A stretch of DNA of 22,298 nt. It comes from a virus. Under the pieces are notes generated by a model. It searched no databases. It was not told where the DNA came from and was given only the letters and a program-made list of their open reading frames with translations. The stretch spans positions 1 to 22,298 of IMG/VR virus record IMGVR_UViG_3300042563_001898; one strand, 5' to 3'. Positions within the stretch are counted from its first letter, which is position 1; each line of letters opens with the position of its first letter. Shown in pieces: positions 3,915 through 17,749 of this stretch. The position numbers and the translations under genes were made by a program.

Positions 3915-3949
3915 TAAAAAATAAAAATAGTTGGAAGAAGGAGTAGTAA

Positions 3950-4405
3950 ATGGCAACAGTCGACAAAGACTTTAAAGTCAAGAATGGGCTATCCGTAGCA
4001 AACGGGGGTACGTTCGGAGGTACAGTAACAGTTGCAACACCAACTCTTGCTGGGCATGCAGCAACAAAGGCTTATGTGGATTCAGTAACTGGATCTATGC
4101 ATGTTGGCACAACTGCTCCTTCTTCACCAACAAATGGAACACAGTGGTTAGACACTGCAACCAACAGGGTTAATTTCTATTATGAAGGAACTTGGTATAC
4201 CCAGGCAACTATCGATGATACAAATAATCTTCCACAGCACATTCACGATACCGCAATTGATGGAACTGGTTTTATAGTATCTCAGTTCTATGAAGGTGGA
4301 TCATTCAACAGCCCATTGGGTGTAGGTTTGGATGCGGGTGGCCCCTCTACAACAGAGTGGACAGTCGTATTCGATGGCGGTAGTGTAGTAGATAACTTCA
4401 ACTAA
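3950..4405 (+). CDS. Short tail-fibre-like protein (151 aa)
   Basis: The N-terminal MATVDKDFKVKNGLSV closely matches the head of the larger upstream fibre, and TLAGHAATKAYVDSV (33-47) is the tail-fibre phrase that also occurs there. Residues 50-90 (GSMHVGTTAPSSPTNGTQW and VNFYYEGTWY) resemble the small beta modules of phage fibre tips. The C-terminal part is Gly-rich. The protein lacks the long shaft and may be a shorter fibre or a tip protein that uses the same attachment point. ATG 3950 has AAGGAG at a good distance. No enzyme motif is visible. Confidence 0.75.
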   Translation: MATVDKDFKVKNGLSVANGGTFGGTVTVATPTLAGHAATKAYVDSVTGSMHVGTTAPSSPTNGTQWLDTATNRVNFYYEGTWYTQATIDDTNNLPQHIHDTAIDGTGFIVSQFYEGGSFNSPLGVGLDAGGPSTTEWTVVFDGGSVVDNFN

Positions 4406-4413
4406 AAAATTGA

Positions 4414-4422
4414 TGTTATAAT
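4414..4422 (+). promoter_or_regulatory. Extended -10 promoter of the repeat fibre gene
   Basis: TGT-TATAAT at 4414-4422, 9 nt after the preceding stop codon. The expected start is near 4429, giving a leader of about 35 nt that contains AAGGAG (4449-4454) before ATG 4464. Unlike its relatives upstream, this promoter serves a gene with a normal ribosome-binding site. Confidence 0.6.
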
Positions 4423-4463
4423 AATATAAGTAAATGGGCAGCCCCCATAAGGAGAATATAAAT

Positions 4464-6068
4464 ATGGCAACAAGAATGCAACAGCGCAGAGGTACTGCAG
4501 CACAATGGTCGGCTGCAAACCCAATTCTCGCAGCAGGTGAAATCGGTTTTGAAACCGACACAAGTAAGTTTAAAATGGGTAACGGCTCCTCAGCCTGGTC
4601 AGCATTGACATATTTTGCTAATGCAGCAGAACTAGCAGCGATCATTGATGGTGCCCCAGACCTTCTAAATACTCTGAACGAGTTAGCAGCATCGATTGGT
4701 GACGATCCAACATTCTTTACAAGTGTTGCTTCAAACCTTTCAGCACACTCTTCAGATACAACATCAGTTCACGGAATTGCAGATACATCAGCACTCGCTA
4801 CAACATCAGCAACTTCAACAGCAATTGGATCAGCAATTACAACACACAATGCAACAACAAGTGTTCACGGTATTGCTGATACCTCAGTTCTAGCAACTGT
4901 AACAGATGTATCAACAGCAAAGACAGAAGCAATTGCAGATGCAGGCACAGCAGCAGACTCAAAGGTTTCTTTGCACTCTTCTGATACCACTGGTGTTCAC
5001 GGTATTGCTGACACTTCAGCCCTTGCTACAACAGCAGCAACAGACACAGCAATTGGTCTTGCAGTATCAACACACAATTCAGATACAACAGAGGTTCATG
5101 GAATTGCTGACACTTCAGCACTTGCTCTAACAGCAGATGTTTCTGCACACACAGGAGCAACTCTGAATGTACACGGAATTGCAGATACAGAAGATCTTGT
5201 TACAACAGCAATTCTTTCTACACATACTGGTGCAACAACATCAGTTCACGGTATTGATGACACATCTCTTCTTGTTACAACAGAGATGTTGGCAGATGCA
5301 ATTACTCCATCTGCTCTAGGCTATGCAGGTCTTGCAGGCGTTGGACTTGATTATGATGCAGAAAATGATGCACTAGATATTGATTCAACAGTAGCAACTA
5401 AGACATACGCAGACAATGCAGTATCAACACACCAATCAGACACAACGAATGTTCACGGTATTGCAGATACATCACTTCTAGCACTTAAGTCAGAAGTTGC
5501 AGCAGTAACAGCAACCACACTTGGTCTTGGAAATGTAACTAATACATCAGATGCAGACAAGCCAGTATCAACAGCACAGTCTACAGCAATTGCAACTGCA
5601 AAGGCAGAAGCAATCGCAGACGCAACATCACAGGTTAATGCACTATTATCAGGTGCCCCAGCAGCCCTCAACACACTTGATGAACTTGCTGCAGCACTTG
5701 GTGATGACGCAAACTTTGCAGCATCAGTAACAACAAATCTTGGATTAAAGGTAGATTCTTTGACACCAATTTCACAAAAGACAGCATCATACACACTTTC
5801 ATCACTAACTGAAAGAGATGATCTAATTGAAATGGGTTCAGCATCAGCACTAACTCTAACAATCCCAACAGATTCAACTCTAAACTTCCCAATTGGAACA
5901 TCCATTGATATCCTTCAGACATCAACTGGACAGGTTACAATTGCAGGAGCAGGCGGAGTAACTGTTAACGCAACACCTGGCTTGAAACTTCGTACAACTT
6001 GGTCATCATGTACTCTCTTTAAGAGAGCAGCAAATACCTGGGTTGTCTACGGCGACTTGACAGCGTAA
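4464..6068 (+). CDS. Tail fibre with Mtd-N-like head and seven VHGI repeats (534 aa)
   Basis: Residues 1-50 (MATRMQQRRGTAAQW, GEIGFETDTSKFKMGNG) match the N-terminal domain of phage tropism-determinant and hydrolase-type tail fibres (Mtd-N-like), which anchors the fibre. DLLNTLNELAASIGD (66-80) and a second similar phrase near the C-terminal third are fibre signatures. Residues 95 to about 342 carry seven repeats of the form H-x7-H-G-I-x-D-T. The last 100 residues form a beta domain (TLTIPTDSTLNFPIGTSIDI, GQVTIAGAGGV, NTWVVYGDL) common at fibre C-termini. The frame is open to an ATG at 4434, but ATG 4464 has AAGGAG 9 nt upstream and gives the standard domain start. Probable receptor-binding or shaft protein. 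Confidence 0.85.
   Translation: MATRMQQRRGTAAQWSAANPILAAGEIGFETDTSKFKMGNGSSAWSALTYFANAAELAAIIDGAPDLLNTLNELAASIGDDPTFFTSVASNLSAHSSDTTSVHGIADTSALATTSATSTAIGSAITTHNATTSVHGIADTSVLATVTDVSTAKTEAIADAGTAADSKVSLHSSDTTGVHGIADTSALATTAATDTAIGLAVSTHNSDTTEVHGIADTSALALTADVSAHTGATLNVHGIADTEDLVTTAILSTHTGATTSVHGIDDTSLLVTTEMLADAITPSALGYAGLAGVGLDYDAENDALDIDSTVATKTYADNAVSTHQSDTTNVHGIADTSLLALKSEVAAVTATTLGLGNVTNTSDADKPVSTAQSTAIATAKAEAIADATSQVNALLSGAPAALNTLDELAAALGDDANFAASVTTNLGLKVDSLTPISQKTASYTLSSLTERDDLIEMGSASALTLTIPTDSTLNFPIGTSIDILQTSTGQVTIAGAGGVTVNATPGLKLRTTWSSCTLFKRAANTWVVYGDLTA
4746..5489 (+). repeat. Seven protein-level repeats with paired histidines in the fibre shaft
   Basis: Repeats start with His at codons beginning near 4746, then recur irregularly to the last one at 5430. 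Each reads roughly H-x-x-(D/A)-T-T-x-V-H-G-I-A-D-T-S-x-L. At DNA level GTTCACGG(A/T)ATTGC recurs almost unchanged, so the array can recombine or slip in frame. Confidence 0.8.
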
Positions 6069-6100: not shown

Positions 6101-7480
6101 ATGGCAGCAGGTAAAAAGATAGGAAAGAAGTCCCAAGCGTCAAATGACTTTTTGGAACCGTTAGCACCAATATTAGGTGGTGCAACAAACGTAGGAACTG
6201 ATCGACCATTTAACGATGGTGCCGTCACTGTAACATTTTCTTTACCAGCACTTTCTCCTGCTGCTACATCATATACAGTAACTGCAAGCACTGGTCAAAC
6301 AGCAACTGGAGCATCTTCCCCTATTACAGTAACTGGGATTGCATCAACTGCAACTCCAACATTTACAGTACGGGCTACGAATGCTGCAGGAACTTCTGCT
6401 GCTTCTAACGCATCTGGCGCTGTTACAGTTACAACTGTTCCAGCAACTCCTTCTGCACCAGTAGCAACAACTGCAGTTAACCAGGATACAATTACTTGGA
6501 CAGCACCAGCAAATGGTGGTTCAGCAATTTTGGATTATACTTGGGCATCTTCAGATGGTAAGGGTGCAACACTTAATGCACTAACTACTGCTGTCGCTCA
6601 AGAAGGATCTACGGCTCAGACTTACACAGTACGGGCACGAAATGCTAACGGATTATCTGCAGTATCTCCTGCATCTAACTCTGTTACCACTACCCCGCCG
6701 TTTTTCCCACCGTTCTTCCCACCATTCTTCCCGTTCTTCCCTCCATTCTTCCCACCATTCTTCCCTCCATTCTTCCCACCGTTCTTCCCATTCTTCCCAC
6801 CGTTCTTCCCACCATTCTTCCCGTTCTTCCCGTTCTTCCCACCATTCTTCCCATTCTTCCCGTTCTTCCCGTTCTTCCCACCATTCTTCCCGTTCTTCCC
6901 GTTCTTCCCACCATTCTTCCCACCACCATTCTTCCCACCATTCTTCCCGTTCTTCCCGTTCTTCCCAAGTTTTATTATCCCTTGGTTCGGACCACCGTGC
7001 GTTGAAGAAAACACACTGATCGACACACCTAATGGACAGATTCCTGTAAAGAATCTTCAAGTCGGAGATGTCGTCTGGTCAACACCAATCAGTGAATTGG
7101 ACGAATCAGAGCCAGACTGGCACAAATATGCCTGGTCTGCAAACAACCTAACAACAGGTGCTTTGGTTGAGACAACAATCACAGCAATGGAAGTTGTTGA
7201 AGAGTCAGATATCATATGTTTCAACGGAAACTCAGATATTAGACTAACCTTCACACAGCCAGTGTTCGTGAAGACAGTCAACAACATCTACAAGATCAAA
7301 GAAGCATACTACGTAGAAGTTGGAGAAAGCCTGATAGTTATAGACTCAACTGGTCAAAAGGTTGAGGTCCCAGTAACAAGTATCGAGCACTTCACAGACG
7401 AAGTAGTAAATGTTTACCAACTATCTTGTGAGCCTTACGACTGGTTCTTTGTAAGTGGTATACTAATACACAACAAGTAA
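6101..7480 (+). CDS. Fn3-Fn3-(Pro/Phe tract)-Hint protein (459 aa)
   Basis: Mosaic protein. Residues 1-27 are a basic head. Residues 28-112 and 115-197 are two fibronectin type III domains with closing motifs FTVRATNAAGTSAASNAS and YTVRARNANGLSAVSPAS. Residues 199-289 consist only of Pro and Phe, as PPFF and PFF units. After SFIIPWFGPP, residues 300-458 form a Hint (hedgehog/intein) domain: it opens with C300 in CVEENTLIDTPNG, has LQVGDVVWS, and ends ILIHNK, so it has the nucleophile Cys and the terminal His-Asn expected for self-cleavage. The usual block-B His is replaced by Gln (TFTQ, Q386), which could slow or abolish N-S acyl shift. The residue after Asn is Lys and then stop, so this is not a splicing intein with a C-extein. 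Start ATG has AGGAG upstream. Likely a virion surface protein; self-processing is inference. Confidence 0.8.
   Translation: MAAGKKIGKKSQASNDFLEPLAPILGGATNVGTDRPFNDGAVTVTFSLPALSPAATSYTVTASTGQTATGASSPITVTGIASTATPTFTVRATNAAGTSAASNASGAVTVTTVPATPSAPVATTAVNQDTITWTAPANGGSAILDYTWASSDGKGATLNALTTAVAQEGSTAQTYTVRARNANGLSAVSPASNSVTTTPPFFPPFFPPFFPFFPPFFPPFFPPFFPPFFPFFPPFFPPFFPFFPFFPPFFPFFPFFPFFPPFFPFFPFFPPFFPPPFFPPFFPFFPFFPSFIIPWFGPPCVEENTLIDTPNGQIPVKNLQVGDVVWSTPISELDESEPDWHKYAWSANNLTTGALVETTITAMEVVEESDIICFNGNSDIRLTFTQPVFVKTVNNIYKIKEAYYVEVGESLIVIDSTGQKVEVPVTSIEHFTDEVVNVYQLSCEPYDWFFVSGILIHNK
6695..6967 (+). repeat. In-frame tandem repeats encoding 91 Pro/Phe residues
   Basis: The stretch is built from 9-nt (CCN-TTC-TTC) and 12-nt (CCN-CCN-TTC-TTC) units, with CCA or CCG as the only variation apart from the first unit. 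All units are multiples of three, so copy-number changes keep the frame. The minus strand is correspondingly G- and A-rich with GGG every 9-12 nt. Confidence 0.95.
7456..7464 (+). promoter_or_regulatory. Candidate extended -10 promoter for the dioxygenase block
   Basis: TGG-TATACT lies inside the last codons of the Hint gene. The expected start is near 7471, giving a leader of about 32 nt that carries the hairpin and ribosome-binding site of the first dioxygenase gene. The -35 is weak (TTACGA with 18-nt spacing). A chance match within coding sequence is possible. Confidence 0.45.
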
Positions 7481-7491
7481 TCTAGTAGAGA

Positions 7492-7537
7492 GTAGGGAGT
7501 ATATGTCAGTCGACAATAACGACGGTATACTCCCTAC
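7492..7537 (+). promoter_or_regulatory. 12-bp hairpin burying the ribosome-binding site of the first dioxygenase
   Basis: GTAGGGAGTATA (7492-7503) and TATACTCCCTAC (7526-7537) are perfect reverse complements separated by 22 nt. The 5' arm contains the AGGGAG site and the A of the ATG at 7503; the 3' arm lies in codons 8-12. Folded RNA would hide the ribosome-binding site. No T-run follows, so it is not an ordinary terminator. It could instead be a protein-binding operator. Confidence 0.7.
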
Positions 7538-8171
7538 CTCTGTTTTAAACAAGGTAGTTATAATTCCTGGTCTAGTATTGTATAAAAATATTCTATTAGA
7601 AGGAAACAAAATAATAAAAAATATTGAAAATGCCTTGTCGGATAATAGCAATTATAAGTGGAGTCCCGCAATGGTCGGGAATAGACAAAGAGTTCCAGAC
7701 TATAGGGACTGCCTTGACTTTAAATTTAAAAAGTCTACAATTATTGGAACAGATGATAAGTCTGAAATAATAAAAGACTCTTGGCAGTATTTATACGACA
7801 ACATGAATATTGCAGTAAAAGATTATTGCACTATGTATCCAATGGAGCCTTTAGAGTATTGGGAGTCAATAAATCTAGTTAAGTATTTTCCAGGAAACCA
7901 TTTTCAAACACATGCAGACGATGGAGCATCCTATAAGTCTGTTGTGTCTTTAGTTGGATACTTAAATGATGACTATGCTGGTGGAGAAATATCATTTCCT
8001 GCTCATGATATTATAATTAAACCAGATGCTGGAGATCTTGTAATATTCCCATCAAACTATATGTTTATGCATAGAGCAATGCCAGTTGAAAGCGGTATAA
8101 AGTATTCAATCGTAACAATGCTAGATTATAGTGATAAGTTTCATACACAGAGGTTTTATTATGGAAAGTAA
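7503..8171 (+). CDS. Fe(II)/2-oxoglutarate dioxygenase 1, prolyl-4-hydroxylase-like (222 aa)
   Basis: First of ten related dioxygenases. Members of this family use Fe(II), O2 and 2-oxoglutarate to hydroxylate a substrate, releasing succinate and CO2. The jelly-roll core (about 125-212) has the iron ligands H137 and D139 (HAD) and H190 (MFMHRAMPV), plus K200 (SGIKYS) to hold 2-oxoglutarate. YLNDDYAGGEISF is the family signature between them. The N-terminal part includes a segment (YKWSPAMVGNRQRVPDYRDC, then LDFKFKK) shared with dioxygenases 4 and 5, which marks a subfamily and may bind substrate. The start uses AGGGAG with only 3 nt spacing, inside a stable hairpin. It overlaps the next gene by 11 nt. 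Substrate unknown; free or peptidyl proline, other peptides, sugars or lipids are all possible for this fold. Confidence 0.85.
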   Translation: MSVDNNDGILPTSVLNKVVIIPGLVLYKNILLEGNKIIKNIENALSDNSNYKWSPAMVGNRQRVPDYRDCLDFKFKKSTIIGTDDKSEIIKDSWQYLYDNMNIAVKDYCTMYPMEPLEYWESINLVKYFPGNHFQTHADDGASYKSVVSLVGYLNDDYAGGEISFPAHDIIIKPDAGDLVIFPSNYMFMHRAMPVESGIKYSIVTMLDYSDKFHTQRFYYGK

Positions 8172-8706
8172 AGAGTTGGCTTTAGGAGTTATACTTTATA
8201 AAGGCATAAACTTACCATGTAAAGAAGAAGTGTTATCTTTAGATTTTAAAGGAGCAACAATGGAAAGCATAATTAGTAATGATGAGTTTAAAACAGACTA
8301 TAACTCTAGGATTACACTTTCAATAGATGTTCCATATGTTAATAGAGATAACAATAGGTTTACTGACTCTTTTAGAGAAACTTTTGATCCAGTAGAAAAA
8401 GACTATATGTCTTTATTTAACATATCTTTAAAATCTCATAATCCATATAAAATTTTAAAGTATGAGGTCGGTGGCAAGTTTGAAAATCACATGGATGACG
8501 GCGGGGGTAACTTTAGAAGAGTCTCAACTGTTTATTATCTTAATGATAACTATGAAGGGGGTCAACTGTGCTTCCCTCAATTTGGAATAGAATTAAAGCC
8601 AGATGCTGGAGATATGATCATATTCCCATCATCATACGTATACTCTCATAGCGTAAAGCCAGTCATATCTGGAAATAGATACTCAATAGCAAGTTGGTTA
8701 AAATGA
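8161..8706 (+). CDS. Fe(II)/2-oxoglutarate dioxygenase 2 (181 aa)
   Basis: Shortest of the ten, essentially the catalytic core with a reduced N-terminal part. Iron ligands are H110, D112 (HMD) and H163 (YSHSVKPV); R173 (SGNRYS) is the likely 2-oxoglutarate-binding residue, in place of the Lys of dioxygenase 1. YYLNDNYEGGQLCFP is the family signature, and the start (LALGVILYKGI) parallels the N-terminal strand of dioxygenases 1 and 5. The frame opens upstream, but ATG 8161 is the sensible start, with AGAGG 8-12 nt before it and an 11-nt overlap with the previous gene. Its own stop overlaps the next start as ATGA. The lack of the RDCxDFKFK segment suggests a substrate different from that of dioxygenases 1, 4 and 5. 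Confidence 0.85.
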   Translation: MESKELALGVILYKGINLPCKEEVLSLDFKGATMESIISNDEFKTDYNSRITLSIDVPYVNRDNNRFTDSFRETFDPVEKDYMSLFNISLKSHNPYKILKYEVGGKFENHMDDGGGNFRRVSTVYYLNDNYEGGQLCFPQFGIELKPDAGDMIIFPSSYVYSHSVKPVISGNRYSIASWLK

Positions 8707-9194
8707 TTAAAAATATTGACACCCCTGCAAACAAAGATCATATTTTAGGAATTAAAGAAAAGTTAGACGCTCTTTGCCCATTAAATAGGTTTGAAGATAC
8801 ACCCCACTGGTCATCTGACTGTGTTAGTGCTGATCAGGTGTATAGAATTCATAAACTTGCACAAAGGCTTATAGAAGAGACTGGGGTTATTATTCAAGGT
8901 CAAATCACAGAATTGTTTAAGTTACAAACAAAAGTGCTTCCATATAATATTCAATTAATTAAAATAGATAGAAATACTTTTGATACAAATGTGATAGTTG
9001 AAGGTCAGATATGTCAAACTATAACTCCAATAGTTGAAGATTGCAAAACCTACATACTAGAAAATAATTCTGGAGATGCTACCATAGAAGAACTTGTTTT
9101 AGGAGATTATGCAATAGCCACATATTGGACTGACTATAGAGATAAAAGATATAAGAATTGGTTTATTGGAAAATATATGGTTAGATATGTATAA
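8703..9194 (+). CDS. Orphan protein within the dioxygenase block (163 aa)
   Basis: Not a dioxygenase: there is no HxD...H pattern and no NDDYEGGE signature. I do not recognise a family. The first 70 residues are polar and probably helical (HKLAQRLIEETGVIIQGQI). Residues 85-163 look like beta strands with aromatic residues (GDYAIATYWTDYRDKRYKNW). Four Cys are scattered. No signal peptide or membrane helix. It starts in an ATGA overlap with dioxygenase 2 and overlaps dioxygenase 3, so it is translated with them. It could be a partner, carrier or substrate of the enzymes; that is conjecture from position only. Confidence 0.65.
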   Translation: MIKNIDTPANKDHILGIKEKLDALCPLNRFEDTPHWSSDCVSADQVYRIHKLAQRLIEETGVIIQGQITELFKLQTKVLPYNIQLIKIDRNTFDTNVIVEGQICQTITPIVEDCKTYILENNSGDATIEELVLGDYAIATYWTDYRDKRYKNWFIGKYMVRYV

Positions 9195-9969
9195 AAAAGA
9201 TTTATCAAATCCAAAAATTAGAGTGGTAGAAGACTTTATAGATCCAGAAACCTGTGAGTATTTAATAAACTATGCCCAATCTGAAAATCTTTGGGATAAC
9301 TTTAATGACTCAATTACAGCCATTGCTTTTAAAGACAAGGAAGAATATATCTCTGCTGGCAAGCAATGGAACAATAGAAGAATCGATATTAATGAACTTT
9401 ATTCTCAAGGTATGGATAAAAGAAAAGACTTATTTGATATTGTATTACCATTGCAATATAAAATGCATGGAGAGGTTATAGACTTTTTTAATCCAGATTT
9501 TGAATTACATAGCGAGTTGTGGGAAATTGTTCGTTGGAAAGAAGGCAATTTCCAAGAACCACATGTAGACCATATTGATCCAGATTTTGATTTATCTTCT
9601 GTAGATTTAAACTTAGTTCCAGAAGAATGTAAATACTTCTTTGAAGAGAGAAATATTGAAAAGTATAAAAAATTTTTTACCAATAAGTCTTTTACTTCTA
9701 TAATTTACTTAAACGATGATTATGAAGGGGGAGAACTTTATTTCCCACAGCATAATGGTTTTGAAATAAAGCCTAAAAAAGGAACAATGCTAATTTTTAG
9801 CGGAACAATAGACAATATGCATGGAATAAAAGAAGTGACCAGCGGAACAAGATATACCCATGTAACATTTTGGTCTAATAATATTTCTAAATCTAGTAAG
9901 ATTGCTTTTGATAAAAAGGTAAATAGGCTAGTTGTTGATGAAAATAACAAGCCAGTTATACATATATGA
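9187..9969 (+). CDS. Fe(II)/2-oxoglutarate dioxygenase 3 (260 aa)
   Basis: Iron ligands H126 and D128 (PHVDHID) and H212 (NMHGIKEV), with R222 (SGTRYT) for 2-oxoglutarate. IIYLNDDYEGGELYFP is the family core. The region between HxD and the core is long (about 45 residues, rich in acidic and aromatic residues), probably a lid over the active site. The N-terminus (IRVVEDFIDPETCEYLINYA) is the usual prolyl-hydroxylase-like opening, shared in style with dioxygenases 6 and 8. I chose ATG 9187; a TTG at 9166 in the same frame would add seven residues, and neither has a strong ribosome-binding site. It overlaps the orphan gene by 8 nt. Last gene before an internal promoter. Confidence 0.83.
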   Translation: MYKKDLSNPKIRVVEDFIDPETCEYLINYAQSENLWDNFNDSITAIAFKDKEEYISAGKQWNNRRIDINELYSQGMDKRKDLFDIVLPLQYKMHGEVIDFFNPDFELHSELWEIVRWKEGNFQEPHVDHIDPDFDLSSVDLNLVPEECKYFFEERNIEKYKKFFTNKSFTSIIYLNDDYEGGELYFPQHNGFEIKPKKGTMLIFSGTIDNMHGIKEVTSGTRYTHVTFWSNNISKSSKIAFDKKVNRLVVDENNKPVIHI

Positions 9970-9971
9970 AA

Positions 9972-10000
9972 TTGACAGGATTATCTTTTTATGCTATACT
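9972..10000 (+). promoter_or_regulatory. Consensus promoter inside the dioxygenase block
   Basis: TTGACA (9972-9977), a 17-nt spacer, and TATACT (9995-10000) preceded by TGC. This is the closest match to a full sigma-70-type promoter in the window. The expected start is near 10007, 13 nt before ATG 10020, with AAGGGGAAA as the ribosome-binding site. Confidence 0.8.
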
Positions 10001-10019
10001 TTATTAAAAGGGGAAAAAT

Positions 10020-10787
10020 ATGAGTAATTTAATTTCTTTTATGTCTAATAGGCCATGGCTTAAAAAAGATAGCAAGTCTGTTCCAACCCCAATAATTAAA
10101 ACAATCCCAGAATGGTATCGAGAAGCAGATAGATTTGCAAAGATGCCCAATGGAGAATTTTACAAGGCACCGAAAGAGATTTGCCCATATCCAAAAGAAG
10201 GAACAGCAGATGACTATGGGCTAATACCAACATGGAAAGCATGCCCTTCAATTTTTGATATTATGGGAACTGGATATTCTTTAAATCTTCCTTGTGATAT
10301 AGAGTTTATACAAAAAGATGAAAGAACATTAATAGTAAACATAGAAGACAAACAATATAAAGATTTCTGTACGCCAAGACCACCAATGGCGCAGTTTAAA
10401 CATCCTATGGGATATCACGAAAACCATTTTTCCTGGTTTATTGATTGGGGTCTAAAAACTCCAGAAGGTTATAGTAGTTTGATCACTCAGCCATTCAATA
10501 GGTTTGAACTGCCATTCCTAAACACCTCTGGTATAATTGACACAGACAAGGTTCATTTGATGGGATCCTTACCATTTTTTATTATAAAAGGTTGGTCAGG
10601 AACTCTTAAGGCTGGAACTACTTTTGCACAAGTCTTGCCTTTCAAAAGAGAAGATTGGTCGTCAGAAGTATCAATAGAAAATCCAATGAACATGTATACA
10701 AGAAATAAAGAGAATTCTGAGTTTTATAGAGTCCCTGATGGAGGGGTTTATAAAAACAAAGTCTGGAGCAGAAGGAAGTATGAATAA
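10020..10787 (+). CDS. DUF6065-like protein A (255 aa)
   Basis: Unknown function. It shares its layout with the second such gene in this block (at 12188): a strand pair around CPSIFDIMGTGYSLNLPCDIEF against CFPVTQANVIGWSLSC, a TPEGYSSLITQPFNR segment against TDENISLLTINPVNYF, and LKAGTTFAQVLPF against IKAGTPLATIIPI near the C-terminus. The second protein resembles DUF6065, which I recall from memory; this one is a more distant relative. Residues 120-150 are rich in His, Trp and Phe. No signal peptide. It is the first gene after a consensus promoter and is directly followed by dioxygenase 4 (TAATG overlap), so it probably works with dioxygenases 4 and 5. Confidence 0.7.
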   Translation: MSNLISFMSNRPWLKKDSKSVPTPIIKTIPEWYREADRFAKMPNGEFYKAPKEICPYPKEGTADDYGLIPTWKACPSIFDIMGTGYSLNLPCDIEFIQKDERTLIVNIEDKQYKDFCTPRPPMAQFKHPMGYHENHFSWFIDWGLKTPEGYSSLITQPFNRFELPFLNTSGIIDTDKVHLMGSLPFFIIKGWSGTLKAGTTFAQVLPFKREDWSSEVSIENPMNMYTRNKENSEFYRVPDGGVYKNKVWSRRKYE

Positions 10788-11515
10788 TGACAGTATATGA
10801 TGAAAATGAAACCCCATGGTTTACTAAGGACAGATCAGAGACAGCCTTAAACAGGTATCCTTCTAGAGATATTGGTAACGGCATCTTAGTTGAAAACCCA
10901 GCATTGGGTATAAACCTATATAGAAATACATTTTCAAAAGAAGATTCTGAAAGATATATAAAGACTCTTGAGTCAAACCTGAGTACTGGTGGTAAATACA
11001 AGTGGTCAGAGGCGCAAGTTACAAACTCCAGTGTTCCAATCAAAAAGGCTAGAGATGCTGTAGACTTTAAGTTTAAGCAAGAAAACCTAGGTCCACGAGA
11101 TGAAACAAATGCAGAACTTATTGATTTACATGAAGAAATTTATCAGAAACTAAAACTATGCGTTGATGATTATGCAAGGTACTGGGGAATAAACGTTATA
11201 TACTACGAAGCGTTTAACTTTGTAAAATATGAAGGAGAAGGAACACACTTCAACATCCATGCTGACCACGGACCAATGTATAACTGCACAGTGTCTGCTG
11301 TCATATATATAAATGAAGATTATGAAGGCGGAGAAATAAGGTTCCCAAGAATGGACAACTATACTCATACTCCACGAATAGGAGATATTCTTCTTTGCCC
11401 GTCTAACTATATCTATGAGCATGCATCTTTGCCAATGAAAAGGGGATCAAAGTATTGTGTAGTTGTTATGACAGACATTAATGAACTTGGCCATCAAGGA
11501 GTGAGGAACAAATAA
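10787..11515 (+). CDS. Fe(II)/2-oxoglutarate dioxygenase 4 (242 aa)
   Basis: Iron ligands H158, D160 (HAD in NIHADHG) and H212 (YEHASLPM), with K222 (GSKYCV) for 2-oxoglutarate. VIYINEDYEGGEIRFP is the core signature. It belongs to the subfamily of dioxygenases 1 and 5: KYKWSEAQVTNSS and ARDAVDFKFKQ correspond to their middle segment. The N-terminal 40 residues (ETPWFTKDRSETALNRYPS) are an extra arm not present in dioxygenase 5. The start codon overlaps the previous stop, with AAGGAAG before it; its own stop overlaps the start of dioxygenase 5. The triad is intact, so it should be active. Confidence 0.85.
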   Translation: MTVYDENETPWFTKDRSETALNRYPSRDIGNGILVENPALGINLYRNTFSKEDSERYIKTLESNLSTGGKYKWSEAQVTNSSVPIKKARDAVDFKFKQENLGPRDETNAELIDLHEEIYQKLKLCVDDYARYWGINVIYYEAFNFVKYEGEGTHFNIHADHGPMYNCTVSAVIYINEDYEGGEIRFPRMDNYTHTPRIGDILLCPSNYIYEHASLPMKRGSKYCVVVMTDINELGHQGVRNK

Positions 11516-12186
11516 TGCAAACATGGACAGACAAGATTGACCTTGGAAATGGTATTTTTTGCTATAAGGGTGTAATCAAAAAAGAAATAGACGTAATTAA
11601 CAGACTTGAAAATGTACTTGGATCTGTTTCTGATTATGGCCAACTATCTCCAGAAGGGAAAAGATACCACTGGCATCCAGCCTATGTTGGTTACCAGCAA
11701 CTAATGCCAGACTATAGAGATTGCGTAGATTTTAAATTTAAGAAGACAGACATAGAACTTGATACTAGTGAAGACTCTATTAAACTTCAATCATTGTGGC
11801 AAGACCTATATGATGTAAAGTTGCCAGTTGTTCAGGACTATTCTAGAATTCACAACATAAATAATTTGCAGTATTGGGAGGCGTTTAACTTTATCAAGTA
11901 CGGACCAGGACAGCATTTTAAAGAGCACCACGATCATGGGTTTTCATATAACTGTACAGTTTCTTTGGTCGCATACCCAAACGATGACTATGAGGGTGGA
12001 GAACTATTCTTTAGACTCCAAGGATTAACATTAAAACCAGAGGCTGGAGATTTATTTGTTTTTCCATCAAACTTTATGTATCCTCATCAGGCAATGCCCG
12101 TTCATTCTGGAATAAAGCATTCAATTGTAACAATGCTTGATTATAACAAAAAGTATCACACTCCAGAAATGTATCAGGGGGACTAA
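11515..12186 (+). CDS. Fe(II)/2-oxoglutarate dioxygenase 5 (223 aa)
   Basis: Closest visible relative of dioxygenase 1: MPDYRDCVDFKFKKT against VPDYRDCLDFKFKKS, and SGIKHSIVTMLDY against SGIKYSIVTMLDY near the C-terminus. This points to gene duplication. Iron ligands are H138 and D140 (HHD) and H191 (YPHQAMPV), with K201 for 2-oxoglutarate; the core is PNDDYEGGELFF. The start overlaps the stop of dioxygenase 4 (TAATG). The two duplicates are separated by about 3.3 kb and by unrelated subfamilies, so they have had time to diverge in substrate. Confidence 0.86.
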   Translation: MQTWTDKIDLGNGIFCYKGVIKKEIDVINRLENVLGSVSDYGQLSPEGKRYHWHPAYVGYQQLMPDYRDCVDFKFKKTDIELDTSEDSIKLQSLWQDLYDVKLPVVQDYSRIHNINNLQYWEAFNFIKYGPGQHFKEHHDHGFSYNCTVSLVAYPNDDYEGGELFFRLQGLTLKPEAGDLFVFPSNFMYPHQAMPVHSGIKHSIVTMLDYNKKYHTPEMYQGD

Positions 12187-12187
12187 A

Positions 12188-12904
12188 ATGTATAATATAA
12201 AAGTTGAAAAAAGTCAGGACTCTCTTTTTGAGATCTCTCCAATGTCCATCAAAAGAGATTGGATGGATGCCACATCGGAAAACCATGCATATAGGTGCTT
12301 TCCAGTAACACAGGCAAATGTTATTGGGTGGAGCCTTTCTTGCACAGATGATGTATCTTTTGAATGGAACGGCATTAACGATCAAACTCCAGATACCGTA
12401 AAGTTATTTAGCCCCGTAGGAGCATATTCTGGAAGAGGCCAATCATCTATTAGTTTGCACACTGGCCTTTATTTTAGAACAGATGAAAACATAAGTCTTT
12501 TAACAATTAATCCAGTAAACTACTTTAGTAATGAATTTGAAACTATGTCTTCTTTAATGACTACATCCTTTTATGACAACCCTCTACCACTTGCAATTAA
12601 AGCAAAGGCTGCAAACAGAGTTGTAACAATTAAAGCGGGTACGCCACTTGCAACAATTATTCCAATATCTTTAACTAGCCTAAATAACAGCACTATTGAG
12701 ATCAATAAGTATATGGATCCAGAAAGAAAAAGAGAAGCATCAAACCTTTCTTATGGACAAGCAGCACAAGTTGTAAACTCTTCGGGAGAGTGGACTGACT
12801 GGTATAGAAATGCTGTAAATGAAAAAGGAGATTCTTTAGGATCTCACGAAGTAAAAGCACTAAAACTTTCAGTTAAAGATAATACTAACGGTGATATACT
12901 ATGA
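12188..12904 (+). CDS. DUF6065-like protein B (238 aa)
   Basis: Residues 15-55 (MSIKRDWMDATSENHAYRCFP, then IGWSLSCTDDVSFEWNG) look like the opening of DUF6065 proteins, as I recall that family. Its function is not known. Two more regions, TDENISLLTINPVNYF and IKAGTPLATIIPI, also occur in the related gene at 10020. The last 60 residues are polar and appear extended. The frame is open upstream into the previous gene, but ATG 12188 is right: CAGGGGGA sits 7-13 nt before it and the start is 1 nt after the previous stop. It ends in an ATGA overlap with dioxygenase 6. Twice in this block a protein of this type directly precedes a dioxygenase gene, which suggests a working partnership. Confidence 0.7.
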   Translation: MYNIKVEKSQDSLFEISPMSIKRDWMDATSENHAYRCFPVTQANVIGWSLSCTDDVSFEWNGINDQTPDTVKLFSPVGAYSGRGQSSISLHTGLYFRTDENISLLTINPVNYFSNEFETMSSLMTTSFYDNPLPLAIKAKAANRVVTIKAGTPLATIIPISLTSLNNSTIEINKYMDPERKREASNLSYGQAAQVVNSSGEWTDWYRNAVNEKGDSLGSHEVKALKLSVKDNTNGDIL

Positions 12905-13575
12905 GCATGGAAGAATATAAAGTAGTTCAGAGAAAACCATCACTAACGCCTTCAGGCTGGTTTGGCAATGGTAAAGATATGATTGTTGAGTTAGAGAACT
13001 TTATGACTCAAGAGGAGATGGACTTTTTAGAAAAGGCTGCAAAGTCTTTAACAATTTGGGATGTTACAGAAAGTCATGTAAATGAGAATGGAACAGTTGT
13101 TTATGAATCAAGTTATTGGAAAGATAGAGTTGCTACTCAGCCAACTTTAGATAAGAATGATCCCAACATATCCCCAATAGTTGCAGGTCTTTTTCAAAGA
13201 CTAAAACCAATTGTTGAAGAATTTTACAAGGTTGAGGTTATTCCAACAGGGACAACGATTGTTAGGTGGCTTCCAGGACAACTGCAAAAGCCACATGCAG
13301 ACAAAGAATTGCACGAAGGTCCAGATGCTGGAACTCCCAATGATTTTCCCAACTACGACTTATCTAGTTTATTTTATTTAAATGACGACTATGAGGGTGG
13401 AGAGTTATACTTCCCAAATCAAGGAGTTCAGTTTAAGCCAAAGAAAGGTGCTGCTTATTTTTTCCCAGGGGACAAAGAGTACATTCATGGAGTAACAGAG
13501 ATTAAGAGTGGTATTAGATACACCTGTCCATTTTTTTGGGAAATAACTAAACACACTGGAGAAAGACAGCCATGA
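12901..13575 (+). CDS. Fe(II)/2-oxoglutarate dioxygenase 6 (224 aa)
   Basis: Iron ligands H132 and D134 (PHADKE) and H196 (YIHGVTEI), with R206 (SGIRYT) for 2-oxoglutarate. LFYLNDDYEGGELYFP is nearly the same as in dioxygenase 3, and GVQFKPKKG parallels its GFEIKPKKG. With the opening MIVELENFMTQEEMDFLEKAA and the IWD segment this puts dioxygenases 3 and 6 in one subfamily. The start is an ATGA overlap with the DUF6065-like gene; a second ATG two codons on is possible. It is linked to dioxygenase 7 by another ATGA overlap. Confidence 0.85.
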   Translation: MSMEEYKVVQRKPSLTPSGWFGNGKDMIVELENFMTQEEMDFLEKAAKSLTIWDVTESHVNENGTVVYESSYWKDRVATQPTLDKNDPNISPIVAGLFQRLKPIVEEFYKVEVIPTGTTIVRWLPGQLQKPHADKELHEGPDAGTPNDFPNYDLSSLFYLNDDYEGGELYFPNQGVQFKPKKGAAYFFPGDKEYIHGVTEIKSGIRYTCPFFWEITKHTGERQP

Positions 13576-14444
13576 TAGCAATGACATCAAACAACTTAAA
13601 CCCAATAGAAATATACCCACAAATATTTGTATACAAAAATCTTTTTAAGGACATAGAAAATACCTATAGAATTTTAAGAGAGTCTGAAGGAGATGATTTG
13701 CTTAGTCCATGGACAAAGTGGTCTCATTTTGGACAATATCTATACCCTACATTTAAAGACTATCATCATGGAATTAGTATTGAGTCTGTTGAAAGTATAG
13801 AGACAAAAACAGAAAAAGAAGAAGAACAAAGGCTTGCAATACTAGAACTGCTTCATATTTTTTATAAGGCAACAGAAGACTATGCTATAAGAACTGGAGT
13901 TAATATAGATAAAGAAAAATATATAACAGACCAGTATGGAAATCAAGTATTTGAATGGCGAAGGGTTGGTCCATCTATTGCAAGATACAGAACAGACATA
14001 GATGACCCAATTGCAATGACATATCATTCAGACTATATAAGACAGCCAATAAAAAGTCCAGACCACAAGTTTGTTATCACTGCTTTAGCATATTTTAACG
14101 ATGACTATGAAGGTGGAGAGATTGACTTTATTGTTTCTGGAGAAGCATTTATGTATAAGCCAGAGGCAGGAGACTTTTTGATTTTCCCTTCAGGACACCC
14201 AGAAATATTAACAAAAGATGGATCTGTTTATATACATGGAGTAATGCCACCAACGGGAGAAGCAAATAAATACATATCAAGAATGTACTGGATGAAGTAT
14301 GAAGATGGTGAACCGCTTTGGTTTGAAAAAGAAAAAGAATTTGGAAAAGAAGTGTGGGCAGAAATGCAAGAAGACATTATGCAAAAGTTTAGAGATGATA
14401 ATCCTAATAAGATTAGTTCAGAAAAAGAAAGAAGGGTCTCATGA
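13572..14444 (+). CDS. Fe(II)/2-oxoglutarate dioxygenase 7 (290 aa)
   Basis: Largest of the ten. Iron ligands are H152 and D154 (YHSDYIRQ) and H222 (YIHGVMPP), with K233 (ANKYIS) as 2-oxoglutarate ligand, one residue further from the His than in most of the set. The core ALAYFNDDYEGGEIDF is followed by an insertion (FIVSGEAFMYKPEAGDFLIF, then a loop PEILTKDGSV) that may shape a distinct substrate pocket. The last 40 residues are a charged, probably helical tail (KEFGKEVWAEMQEDIMQKF), similar in kind to that of dioxygenase 8. ATGA overlaps join it to its neighbours on both sides. Confidence 0.84.
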   Translation: MIAMTSNNLNPIEIYPQIFVYKNLFKDIENTYRILRESEGDDLLSPWTKWSHFGQYLYPTFKDYHHGISIESVESIETKTEKEEEQRLAILELLHIFYKATEDYAIRTGVNIDKEKYITDQYGNQVFEWRRVGPSIARYRTDIDDPIAMTYHSDYIRQPIKSPDHKFVITALAYFNDDYEGGEIDFIVSGEAFMYKPEAGDFLIFPSGHPEILTKDGSVYIHGVMPPTGEANKYISRMYWMKYEDGEPLWFEKEKEFGKEVWAEMQEDIMQKFRDDNPNKISSEKERRVS

Positions 14445-15187
14445 ATCTAGAAAATAAAAAAAGAATAACAAAGGATATAGTTGTTTACGAAAACTTTATT
14501 GATGCAGAAACCGCTGCTAAACTTGTAAAGGTTTTAGATAAGCATGCAGAACTTGGCTTGATTACTTGGATGCCAATATCTTTTTATGAGTCATACTCGT
14601 CTGTTTTACCACAAGACAATGACGAGCATGTAATCGCAGAAGGTCTAGATCCTAATATTTTTTCAGATATGAAAAAGGGAATTGTTAATGCAGTAGCAAG
14701 TGTTCATGACCTTGATCCAAAAATAATTTCTCAGATTGGATACCATACTCAAAAGTGGGAGCCAGGAGCCTACGCTAGAAAGCATTCTGATAATACAGAT
14801 GAGCAGGGAAAGTCTGGAGCATTTACAAGAAGCAGATACGCAGCATTTTTATACCTAAACGACAACTTTGAAGGTGGAATGTTGCAGTTCCCAGATCAAG
14901 ATATAAGTTTGGCACCAAAAGTTGGAATGCTTGCTGCATTTGATGGTGGATTTAACAATATGCACGAGGTAACCTTAATTACTAGTGGTGTAAGATATAC
15001 TCTAGGATCTTTCTGGGATGATAGAGAAGAAGATGCATATCCACAAGAACTAAGAGATGCTTGGGCTGAAGAAATGAAAGCCACTAGAGCACAACAAGAA
15101 ATTGAAAGAGCAGAATGGCAAGAGTTGTTGAAGCAAGGATGGAAACTTGACGATAAAGGAAATAAGTATAAGGTTGAGGAAATCTAA
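14441..15187 (+). CDS. Fe(II)/2-oxoglutarate dioxygenase 8 (248 aa)
   Basis: Iron ligands H115 and D117 (RKHSDNTD) and H175 (NNMHEVTLI), with R185 (SGVRYT) for 2-oxoglutarate. The core is FLYLNDNFEGGMLQFP. The opening (ITKDIVVYENFIDAETAAKLV) is typical of prolyl-4-hydroxylase-like proteins. A charged helical tail (about 205-248, with AWAEEMKATRAQQEIERAEW) follows the catalytic domain and may mediate contact with a partner. The start is an ATGA overlap with dioxygenase 7. GAYARKHSD before the first ligand and GMLAAFDGG in the distal half differ from the other members, so a separate substrate is likely. Confidence 0.84.
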   Translation: MNLENKKRITKDIVVYENFIDAETAAKLVKVLDKHAELGLITWMPISFYESYSSVLPQDNDEHVIAEGLDPNIFSDMKKGIVNAVASVHDLDPKIISQIGYHTQKWEPGAYARKHSDNTDEQGKSGAFTRSRYAAFLYLNDNFEGGMLQFPDQDISLAPKVGMLAAFDGGFNNMHEVTLITSGVRYTLGSFWDDREEDAYPQELRDAWAEEMKATRAQQEIERAEWQELLKQGWKLDDKGNKYKVEEI

Positions 15188-15850
15188 ATGGAACCTTTTC
15201 TAAAAAAAGAATTTGAAGATGCTGGATATAGTTTTGAAATATTTCACGACCAAATCCTTGTAGTTGAAAACTTTTTATCCAAGGTTGAACTAGGAATAAT
15301 TCTTGATATTATAGCAACTACAAAAAATGAAGATTGGTCTATAGAATACAAAAGAAGTCTTGCAGAGTTCTGTATGGAAAAATTTGGCAGAGACGATGTA
15401 GATAATCTTGTAGCAGAAGGCAAGTATGAAATTACACGAGGCTGGGATGACAAAAATTTAAATATTGGTAAAAGAGATATAAGTCGAGTTCTTCAAAAAA
15501 GACTTGGAGACTTACTAGCAATTGCAGATGACAGTCTAGAACTTGCTGGATTTGGAACTATGCAAAGAATGCAAGAGGGAGTAGAATTAAAGTCTCATAC
15601 AGATCAGCATACAGATCCATCTATTAAATATGCTGCTATACTATACATAAATGACGACTACAAGGATGGGACCCTGTTCTTTCAGAATAAGGAAAACTCA
15701 GACTTAAGGCCAAAGCCAGCGTCTTTGCTGATTTTCCCAGGTAACGAAGAATTTGAGCATGGCGTAAGACATGTAGGTAAGGGGCCAATCAGATACGTTA
15801 TAGTTGGCTTTATAAAAGTAAAGAACTTTTACGAAAACAACAAATACTAG
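15188..15850 (+). CDS. Fe(II)/2-oxoglutarate dioxygenase 9, divergent (220 aa)
   Basis: The most divergent of the ten in its core: NDDYKDGTLFF replaces the usual NDDYEGGELYF. The triad is still complete: H137 and D139 (SHTDQHTD), H191 (FEHGVRHV), and R202 (PIRYVI), 11 residues after the distal His. The opening is IFHDQILVVENFLSKVELGII. The segment between 80 and 110 (EITRGWDDKNLNIGKRDIS) has no counterpart that I can see in the others. The start directly follows the previous stop, with GAGGAAA upstream. It is probably active but with a changed pocket. Confidence 0.8.
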   Translation: MEPFLKKEFEDAGYSFEIFHDQILVVENFLSKVELGIILDIIATTKNEDWSIEYKRSLAEFCMEKFGRDDVDNLVAEGKYEITRGWDDKNLNIGKRDISRVLQKRLGDLLAIADDSLELAGFGTMQRMQEGVELKSHTDQHTDPSIKYAAILYINDDYKDGTLFFQNKENSDLRPKPASLLIFPGNEEFEHGVRHVGKGPIRYVIVGFIKVKNFYENNKY

Positions 15851-15859
15851 GAGGCAATA

Positions 15860-16489
15860 ATGGAAAAAGAAATACTTGAAGAAAAGGTTTATTATTACAC
15901 AAATGTAATTGAAGACCCTAAGAAACTTGTTGAGGCAATTGAAAATGACAACAAAGATGAGTGGGGCGAGTGGATGGCCTGTAGCGGTCAGCACTATGTA
16001 TATGGATCAGACAAGACTATTGCTCTAACTGCAGAAACAGATGAAAAGAATAAGTATATTTATGAGACATTGCAGAAGGCTTTTGACGATGTAGCCAGAG
16101 ACTATGCAAAAGCACAAGGAATAACAGACGAGCCAAAACTTTTTCCACAGTACCCAATCAAGAAGTATCAATCTGGAACCTTTATGGGTGCCCATTTTGA
16201 TCAGCAAGAAGGGGATGAAAGATTAAAGGTTTCTTTCGTTATGTATTTAAATGACGACTATGAAGGCGGAGAAATTTCTTTTACTATTGCTTCTCCAGAA
16301 GGAGTTCTTACTCACCCAAGCCCAGAGCCAGACTTTTCTGAGGCAGAGAAGAACGGAAACTATACATTTGCTATTAAGCCAAAAGCAGGTAGCGTTATAG
16401 TGTTCCCACCATCTCCACCATATCACCACACTGCACACTTAGTTAAAAGCGGTGAAAAGATTATGGTTCCACAACACTGGATTCACTAG
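15860..16489 (+). CDS. Fe(II)/2-oxoglutarate dioxygenase 10 (209 aa)
   Basis: Iron ligands H112 and D114 (AHFDQQEG), then H190 in PYHHTAHLV, with K200 (SGEKIM) for 2-oxoglutarate. The core is VMYLNDDYEGGEISF, followed by an insertion of about 30 residues rich in Pro and acidic residues (TIASPEGVLTHPSPEPDFS). The protein ends at PQHWIH soon after the last strand. AGGAGG precedes ATG 15860 by 5 nt, the best ribosome-binding site in the block, so this gene may be translated more strongly than its neighbours. The methyltransferase gene starts 1 nt after its stop. Confidence 0.84.
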   Translation: MEKEILEEKVYYYTNVIEDPKKLVEAIENDNKDEWGEWMACSGQHYVYGSDKTIALTAETDEKNKYIYETLQKAFDDVARDYAKAQGITDEPKLFPQYPIKKYQSGTFMGAHFDQQEGDERLKVSFVMYLNDDYEGGEISFTIASPEGVLTHPSPEPDFSEAEKNGNYTFAIKPKAGSVIVFPPSPPYHHTAHLVKSGEKIMVPQHWIH

Positions 16490-16490
16490 C

Positions 16491-17084
16491 ATGCCTAGTT
16501 ATCATCAACCAACAAGCGAGCAAGAAGAGTTTGTTTTAAACCTTTTAAATAAAAAAAGAGGTGGATACTATGTTGAACTTGGCGCTGCACACTCTGTAAA
16601 TGGAAGCAATACCTACAGGCTTGAAACAGAGTTTGACTGGAAAGGTGTATCATTTGAGATTGTTCCAGAATTACATAAAGAGATTTCTGAGAATAGAAAA
16701 AACCCTTGCATCCTAGGAGATGCAACAAAGTTTGACTATATTGGATACTTTGAAGAGAACAACTTTCCAAATCAAATAGACTACCTACAGGTAGATATCG
16801 ATGCTGGATATCAAATGGATGGCAGACCTGCAGGAAATCATTATACAACTCTGCACGGACTAATTGCGGTTCCTATTAATAAGTATAGATTTTCAGTAAT
16901 AACATTTGAACATGATGCAAACATGTATTGGAGAAACACGGCAATGAGAGACGCTCAAAGAGAGATACTGGATTCTCTTGGTTACTCTTTGGTAGTTAGA
17001 CAAATGCATGAAGACTGGTGGGTAGATCCAAATGTTATCGACTTAGAAAGATATAGAAAATATTTTAAGTGGGATACACTGTAG
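16491..17084 (+). CDS. FkbM-type SAM-dependent methyltransferase (197 aa)
   Basis: Class I methyltransferase fold. The SAM-binding motif is GGYYVELGAAHSVNGSNT (24-41), followed by an acidic residue in VSFEIVPEL (E56), GDATKFD (76-82) and IDYLQVDID (96-104). This order is that of the FkbM family, whose known members O-methylate hydroxyls of sugars and natural products. The C-terminal part has a segment with several Trp and acidic residues (HEDWWVDPNVIDLERY). ATG 16491 is chosen because it follows the previous stop by 1 nt; the frame also opens to a GTG at 16452. Its position right after ten hydroxylases fits methylation of newly made hydroxyls, but this is inference. Confidence 0.8.
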   Translation: MPSYHQPTSEQEEFVLNLLNKKRGGYYVELGAAHSVNGSNTYRLETEFDWKGVSFEIVPELHKEISENRKNPCILGDATKFDYIGYFEENNFPNQIDYLQVDIDAGYQMDGRPAGNHYTTLHGLIAVPINKYRFSVITFEHDANMYWRNTAMRDAQREILDSLGYSLVVRQMHEDWWVDPNVIDLERYRKYFKWDTL

Positions 17085-17749
17085 TGCAAAAAACAGCAAT
17101 TGTAACTGGAGCAAGCAAAGGCGTTGGATATGCAACGGTAAAACTTTTATCTGAAAGTGGGTATAAGGTTATAGCCGTATCTAGAAACTTATCAAATGTT
17201 TCAAAACTTGTTTCTGATAATGTTGAAGTTTATCAAATGGATATAACCAACTCTGAAGAAATAAAAAGATTTCATGAAAAATATAAGGACATAACTCTAG
17301 ACCTTTTAGTAAACAATGCAGGTGGCGGTGCTGGTCCAACAAATATAGTAAATGAAACAATGGATAACTTCAGGAGAGCCTATGATATAAACGTATCTGG
17401 GCCAATGTATTTATCACAACTTTTTGTTCCAGAAATGAAAAAGTCTAGTTCTCCAACAATAATTTTTATTAGTTCTCTTGGTGGAAAATTTGCCTATCAC
17501 GGTGGAGGAAATTATACAAATGCCAAAAGAGGAATGATGGCTCTTGTAGATACAATGAGGCTGGAGTTTCCACAGTACGGTATTAAGATTACTGAAATAT
17601 GTCCAGGAACAATTGACACACAAGAAGAAAAAAGAGACATTGCTTTAACAGCAGAAGACATGGCAGAATGTATAAGATGGGTATCACAATTACCAAGCCA
17701 TGTCAATATAAACCACATAGAGTTAAACCATATACTTAGTGGTAAATGA
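17084..17749 (+). CDS. Short-chain dehydrogenase/reductase (221 aa)
   Basis: Classical SDR. The NAD(P)-binding motif TGASKGVG is at residues 8-15, NNAG at 77-80, N103, the catalytic S131, and Y144-x3-K148. PGTIDT (174-179) is the expected loop after the active site. The basic residue R34 after the second strand hints at NADP use. It would oxidise an alcohol or reduce a ketone. GTG at 17084 is preferred: it overlaps the stop of the methyltransferase (TAGTG) and places the glycine motif at the normal distance; a GTG at 17069 is possible. It is the last gene of the tailoring block. The substrate is not visible from sequence. Confidence 0.85.
   Translation: MQKTAIVTGASKGVGYATVKLLSESGYKVIAVSRNLSNVSKLVSDNVEVYQMDITNSEEIKRFHEKYKDITLDLLVNNAGGGAGPTNIVNETMDNFRRAYDINVSGPMYLSQLFVPEMKKSSSPTIIFISSLGGKFAYHGGGNYTNAKRGMMALVDTMRLEFPQYGIKITEICPGTIDTQEEKRDIALTAEDMAECIRWVSQLPSHVNINHIELNHILSGK

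Follow-up and report, generated by a model that had tools for sequence, protein, structure and literature searches.

Proline hydroxylation has been described mainly in collagen, in plant walls and as part of hypoxia sensing. Among the described enzymes, viral vCPH of PBCV-1 (PDB 5c5t) and the algal prolyl 4-hydroxylase (P4H) P4H-1 with (Ser-Pro)5 (3gze) serve prolines in repeats, whereas the bacterial P4Hs that act on EF-Tu (Pseudomonas putida, 4iw3; Bacillus anthracis, 5v7y) are encoded by chromosomal single genes and have a folded substrate and no repeat tract partner. In phages, the 2-oxoglutarate (2OG)-Fe(II) oxygenases of T4-like cyanophages belong to the same Pfam superfamily and can be many per genome: cyanophages commonly carry 1-5 of them (PMC3037559), and the cultured cyanophage S-SCSM1 carries 24, whose functions, according to its publication, are uninvestigated (PMC9602691). 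DNA repair (PMC3037559) and a role in 2-oxoglutarate balance or metabolism (PMC3037559, PMC9602691) have been proposed for them. The many 2OG oxygenases of aquatic phages have so far lacked a known substrate, and they are usually classed with the auxiliary metabolic genes. We studied a virus record of 22,298 nt, IMGVR_UViG_3300042563_001898 (the window), in which ten oxygenase genes, X1 to X10, follow a gene whose product contains a long Phe/Pro tract. We think it quite probable from the gene content that this cassette is a post-translational modification set whose enzymes hydroxylate the tract prolines of a phage tail-region protein.

The model of X5 resembles vCPH and P4H-1 in fold and Fe/2OG residues, and the use proposed here, prolines in repeats, is the same; however, identity is only ~15% and those are single enzymes without a DUF6065 partner, whereas here a cassette of 5 to 11 genes accompanies an [F/Y/W]FPP repeat. 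The bacterial EF-Tu enzymes share with X5 a single-domain P4H fold. For the cyanophage oxygenases the best identity is 33% (to X5), DUF6065 was not found in any record of that phage collection, and the published role is metabolic. Two genes interspersed in the window cassette belong to the DUF6065 (PF19541) and phrog_7084 families, whose tie to tract and oxygenases is seen here; phrog_7084 has a relative in haloviruses such as HF2. The cultured phage collection gave no DNA match to the window and no DUF6065 in any record, and the literature searched, from which most subscription journals fall outside, held no mention of DUF6065 or PPFFPPFF. The enzyme-tract system is most likely an unreported protein modification. 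A sequence-only reading of the window had called the run of ten genes exceptional, which was overstated, since blocks in relatives range from 5 to 11 and S-SCSM1 has 24 (PMC9602691): ten is high, not unique.

Linkage of the oxygenase cassette to the Phe/Pro tract

The cassette occupies a slot between the gene of the tract-bearing FN3/Hint protein and the ribonucleotide reductase (RNR) gene. With RNR as bait, 80 related contigs (up to 118 kb) were kept of at least 599. RNR was 88-99% identical across the 80 while the adjoining slot was swapped freely, and it is a useful phage-group marker. In about 37 of the 80 relatives, several cut by contig ends, the Hint-RNR slot held the same block in the same order, with X4, phrog_7084, X5, DUF6065, X6, X7, X8, X9 and X10 as its members; in the others it measured ~1-4 kb and had no oxygenase where examined. 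Outside the window, X1, X2, an unknown open reading frame (ORF) and X3 occurred only in L074 and in L032, whose contig stops short of X1. The core X4-X10 was there or missing mostly as a unit, with X7 frequently missing.

The tract switched with the cassette. The homologous FN3/Hint protein had a Phe/Pro tract in 20/20 cassette-bearing loci versus 0/27 cassette-less ones; under a strict motif the counts were 19/20 and 0/27, the apparent exception being L013, with an interrupted tract (PPFFPPSFPFFPP). At the tract position all 27 cassette-less homologues carried FGFSPFGV, GAFGAFG or GFYHGFYH repeats instead. Such alternative tracts (L016 1251-2831, L036 7277-8509, L042 5179-6219, L071 5127-6254) are Phe-rich and recall FG-nucleoporin repeats. 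Because the genomes are related, the test was done on the RNR tree, on which the cassette state changes 12 times, at least 7 of them forced by strong branches; the tract followed the cassette in seven of seven independent pairs (p = 0.016). Since adjacent genes can move in one event, this result alone indicates co-inheritance, not function.

Three further scans of IMG/VR (2.9 million viral contigs), whose starting points were the tract DNA, X6 and a distant DUF6065, agreed on one trio: an [F/Y/W]FPP tract, P4H-like oxygenases and DUF6065, in phages at 30-40% protein identity. Their co-occurrence in three independent collection-wide scans offers a concrete candidate substrate for one large oxygenase group and identifies DUF6065 as a tied partner. 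The first scan used DNA encoding FFPPFFP and was blind to oxygenases; among the matches listed, 61 of 72 informative contigs had an oxygenase at most 4 kb from the tract gene, and DUF6065/phrog_7084 was also present in 50 of those 61. The 11 misses comprised two chance heptapeptides, two short contigs, two contigs with an oxygenase and phrog_7084 further off (L098, L112), three with 5-6 oxygenases elsewhere in the record (L093, L126, L128) and two that truly had none on 37-38 kb (L090, L199). The reverse scan from X6 found the tract in 38/38 loci that had at least 5.5 kb of upstream DNA. The third scan, whose DUF6065 query was 27% identical to that of the window, reached contigs of up to 172 kb and found [F/Y/W]FPP tract plus oxygenases in 64 of 80 loci; among the 16 tract-less loci L330 alone had 6 kb upstream, and it ends short of the tract position seen in its relative L327.

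In 85,000 species genomes the tract pattern had only 17 matches. Three of these (L349, L353, L361) also had oxygenases and one (L360) a DUF6065-like protein; the rest look like unrelated repeats. All four are contigs of metagenome-assembled genomes and thus probably phage DNA. On these findings a cellular origin of tract and cassette was rejected.

The linkage could also arise if the oxygenases modified host proteins (e.g., EF-Tu) or cell-surface material and rode along with the tail protein, the whole block being exchanged as a host-range module: the slot itself is a hot spot of recombination, PDB titles record P. putida and B. anthracis P4Hs acting on EF-Tu, and oxygenases occur in tract-less genomes too. 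We regard this as unlikely, because the linkage holds at 30-40% protein identity in other gene contexts and phage groups, several genomes have a second tract protein distant from the cassette and, within one homologous protein family, it is the tract type and not just the tail module that tracks the cassette.

The oxygenases, the tract protein and DUF6065

The sequence-only reading had proposed ten complete, different oxygenase genes in 9 kb, each with HxD, a distal His and a Lys or Arg, none decayed and all seemingly kept by selection; these proposals held. All ten ORFs are intact, lie on the positive strand and matched PF13640 (2OG-FeII_Oxy_3) above the curated cut-off (E 2e-7 to 5e-18), and ten such matches in 9 kb are not chance. 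In their alignment H-x-D and the distal His were invariant, and a Lys or Arg stood ~10-11 residues past the distal His in every one, about one residue later where an insert is present. Among 1004 distinct uncut oxygenases of relatives, counted over all loci by alignment, 985 retained HxD, distal His and Lys/Arg; several of the remaining exceptions were misaligned X7 proteins with an intact YHSD motif, and the apparent HxS variants of X7 were an alignment artefact. The median ratio of non-synonymous to synonymous substitution rates (dN/dS) was 0.05 for X4, 0.10 for X5, 0.07 for X6, 0.21 for X7, 0.08 for X8, 0.17 for X9 and 0.10 for X10, as compared with 0.05 for RNR; the medians cover X4-X10, orthologues of X1-X3 being too few. 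Retained active sites and purifying selection ruled out decay of some cassette members, and neither the broken triads nor the erratic loss that had been named as signs of a non-working system were found. Within the same interval (window 7503-16489), phrog_3531 (ferrochelatase), phrog_2297 (DNA endonuclease) and phrog_274 (DNA endonuclease V) match the 2OG oxygenase domain, so their labels look like mis-annotations.

In the oxygenase tree each of the ten formed a separate, old orthologue group, which ruled out recent tandem duplication; duplication together with separate acquisition had been suggested from the sequence. Of the groupings suggested with it, X1/X4/X5 was supported in the tree, whereas the tree gave no resolution of X3/X6. 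A role in tuning host 2-oxoglutarate and nitrogen status, or as auxiliary metabolic genes of a general kind that serve no single dedicated substrate, would account neither for ten orthologue groups that have diverged and are each kept by purifying selection nor for the co-occurrence with the tract; we give this account, published for cyanophages (PMC3037559, PMC9602691), hardly any credence.

Profile searches of the PDB placed prolyl 3-hydroxylase 1 (P3H1) and Bacillus P4H at the top for X6, with PiuC and LH3 lower and TET much weaker; for X5 prolyl hydroxylases were likewise best. The AlphaFold (AF2) model of X5, with a predicted local distance difference test (pLDDT) score of 92, had 476 PDB matches at E<=0.001, the top ones prolyl hydroxylases; its fold neighbours include the algal P4H with (Ser-Pro)5, P. 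putida P4H, PBCV-1 vCPH and PHD2. The predicted structure has a prolyl-hydroxylase fold, and the double-stranded beta-helix (jelly-roll) core, proposed earlier as a check, was present in this model, one of the ten oxygenases having been modelled.

The window tract consists of 50 Phe and 41 Pro in 91 residues and nothing else; being devoid of Gly, it does not qualify as a collagen-type Gly-X-Y substrate. Across 144 distinct tracts the units were FFPP (1245), FFP (685), YFPP (225), YFP (66) and WFPP (8). Pro was encoded by CCA (2145), CCG (1014), CCT (513) and CCC (59), and Phe by both TTC and TTT. Codon variation was almost only at third positions and aromatic swaps were confined to the first aromatic place, indicating that selection acts on the peptide. 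A DNA-level role of the tract as a polypyrimidine element was ruled out, as Phe codons give way to those for Tyr or Trp and the third position of Pro codons is variable. Tail genes lie upstream of the cassette, among them one whose 544-aa product has an Mtd_N domain and matches tail-fibre PHROGs, followed by that of the 459-aa tract protein, which from this genome context is probably a tail-region or virion component. Its Hint-like region (window 6998-7480) begins with a Cys directly after the tract (PPCVEENT), ends in SGILIHNK with the HNK at the end, and is missing in some cassette-bearing relatives; judged by its sequence it may self-cleave. In some genomes another tract gene lies well away from the cassette, examples being a 1439-aa ORF in G055 and the gene of a 358-aa protein in G056.

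DUF6065 was modelled from an alignment combining DUF6065 and phrog_7084 rows (pLDDT 91), and Foldseek matched the model to dUTPases (E 6e-5, prob 1.0, template modelling (TM) score (target) 0.6-0.7); the predicted fold is a dUTPase-like beta-clip. We do not call it a dUTPase: a GIID-like segment (G-x-ID) was present in the phrog_7084 rows and not in the DUF6065 rows. Since phrog_7084-like genes were also found in loci without oxygenases, DUF6065 proper is the more specific partner.

This fold, the X6 match to Tet_JBP below threshold, the adjoining RNR and the DNA repair proposed for cyanophage 2OG oxygenases (PMC3037559) would fit enzymes acting on nucleotides or phage DNA (TET/JBP- or AlkB-like) in a DNA-modification route with DUF6065 and RNR. 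Such a route appears very improbable: RNR is equally present in cassette-less relatives, DUF6065 lacks the G-x-ID segment that phrog_7084 keeps, and the best structural and profile matches are prolyl and lysyl protein hydroxylases, with TET far weaker.

Proposed modification of the tract

The cassettes combine intact enzymes, conserved catalytic residues and purifying selection with strict co-occurrence of enzymes, tract and DUF6065 and their joint gain and loss. Because the enzyme sets travel with a Phe-Phe-Pro-Pro tail-region protein across many unrelated aquatic phages, they most likely decorate the repeat, and we infer that the tract is their substrate. A multistep or multisite hydroxylation, as put forward in the sequence-only reading, is favoured by this evidence; the likely substrate, the (PFFPPFF)n tract upstream, had not been named there and lay outside the coordinates considered. 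The Fe(II)/2OG prolyl-hydroxylase-like enzymes would act on the repeat encoded just upstream and also on other fibre proteins with such tracts, encoded at other genomic positions, and the product would be hydroxyproline. The ten enzymes might differ in the repeat register they serve (FFP versus FFPP), in the carbon they hydroxylate (3- versus 4-hydroxy) or in their tract protein, and DUF6065/phrog_7084 might assist in substrate recognition or delivery, a role for DUF6065 that is a guess from linkage. On the particle, the modification could give the FFPP tract, otherwise very hydrophobic, solubility, rigidity or adhesiveness; in collagen and plant extensins hydroxylation has a comparable effect. 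If so, it would be common for phages to hydroxylate proline in tail-region proteins of their own. More tentatively, and with some doubt, we can picture a multi-enzyme phage pathway towards a hydroxyproline-rich, extensin- or adhesive-like tract on a virion appendage, with DUF6065 as a dedicated substrate handler, accessory enzymes (some sulfotransferase-like) acting on the new hydroxyls, and tract chemistry and enzyme set co-evolving as a module that many aquatic phages exchange.

Several points weigh against hydroxylation of the tract. L090 and L199 (records G017 and G020) are possible exceptions, as they encode fibre proteins with long FFPP tracts and had no PF13640 gene on their 37-38 kb fragments. 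Tract-less genomes have 0 to 7 oxygenases elsewhere, beside which no low-complexity tract was seen outside the slot in the regions inspected; some phage 2OG oxygenases therefore lie outside the system, and other substrates exist. Some of the co-occurrence among close relatives reflects joint transfer of the adjacent tract and cassette in one recombination event. Pfam family and fold leave the substrate unfixed, the model basis being X5 alone, and the support for proline hydroxylation comes from genetic linkage to a Pro-rich tract. Finally, a review of chloroviruses refers to an unpublished analysis in which PBCV-1 particles showed no hydroxyproline despite the encoded P4H (PMC7019647).

Cultured S-SCSM1 (L363), of which a virion proteome exists (PMC9602691), offers an analogous case. 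Its oxygenases at 2885-5499 (four) and 9113-11907 (three) flank two adjacent tail-fibre genes, and one of these, the short tail fibre ORF245 (QFG06509.1; 6084-7349), has a long Pro/Arg/aromatic repeat of the RQPRNFRQPR type; no FFPP tract was present in the stretch examined. ORF245 and the oxygenases are a possible analogue with a different repeat, a single case without statistics; a search for homologues of the tail fibre found few, too few for generality.

Gene layout of the window

The cassette genes lie head to tail, mostly with 1-4 nt overlaps, in an operon-like array that starts 22 nt after the tract gene (Table 1). Three non-oxygenase genes interrupt the oxygenase run: the unknown ORF, phrog_7084 and DUF6065.

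Table 1 Features of the tract-cassette region in the window
Feature	Position	Strand	Evidence and remarks
FN3/PKD-like protein with Phe/Pro tract and C-terminal Hint region, 459 aa; proposed substrate	6101..7480	+	Weak Pfam PKD_6 and Hint_2 matches below cut-off; weak virion structural PHROG match; homologues with tracts in relatives
Phe/Pro tract, 91 residues, (P)PFF units	6695..6967	+	Within the 459-aa FN3/Hint protein
Oxygenase X1	7503..8171	+	PF13640; orthologue in L074 only among 80 relatives
Oxygenase X2	8131..8706	+	PF13640; possible ATG start 8161; orthologues in L032, L074
Unknown protein, X2-X3 interval	8694..9194	+	Kept in L032 and L074; no Pfam or PHROG match
Oxygenase X3	9166..9969	+	PF13640
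phrog_7084 protein, homologue of DUF6065	10020..10787	+	PHROG match, joint alignment
Oxygenase X4, first gene of conserved core	10787..11515	+	PF13640
Oxygenase X5, universal member	11515..12186	+	PF13640; AF2 model
DUF6065 protein, universal partner, predicted dUTPase-like fold	12188..12904	+	Pfam match, model
Oxygenase X6, universal member	12901..13575	+	PF13640
Oxygenase X7, frequently missing in relatives	13572..14444	+	PF13640
Oxygenase X8	14441..15187	+	PF13640
Oxygenase X9	15188..15850	+	PF13640
Oxygenase X10, last of core	15860..16489	+	PF13640
Variable accessory gene	16452..17084	+	FkbM-type methyltransferase look by eye, without Pfam match; in part of cassette-bearing relatives
Short-chain dehydrogenase, variable accessory gene	17069..17749	+	PF00106, E 5e-42
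Ribonucleotide reductase (RNR)	17850-19883		Matches phrog_367

Distant cassettes have extra genes at L129 3146-3928, L154 3752-4501 and L166 1340-2227 and 3967-5427. Accessory genes of distant cassettes encode a carbamoyltransferase and a glutathione-peroxidase-like protein, and some ORFs resemble sulfotransferases when judged by eye (HIPRTSG), the Pfam search there giving no support. At the left end of the window, an ORF on the negative strand (72-662) has a signal-like N-terminus and a lytic-transglycosylase-like sequence (ESNG...SSYGMFQIN).

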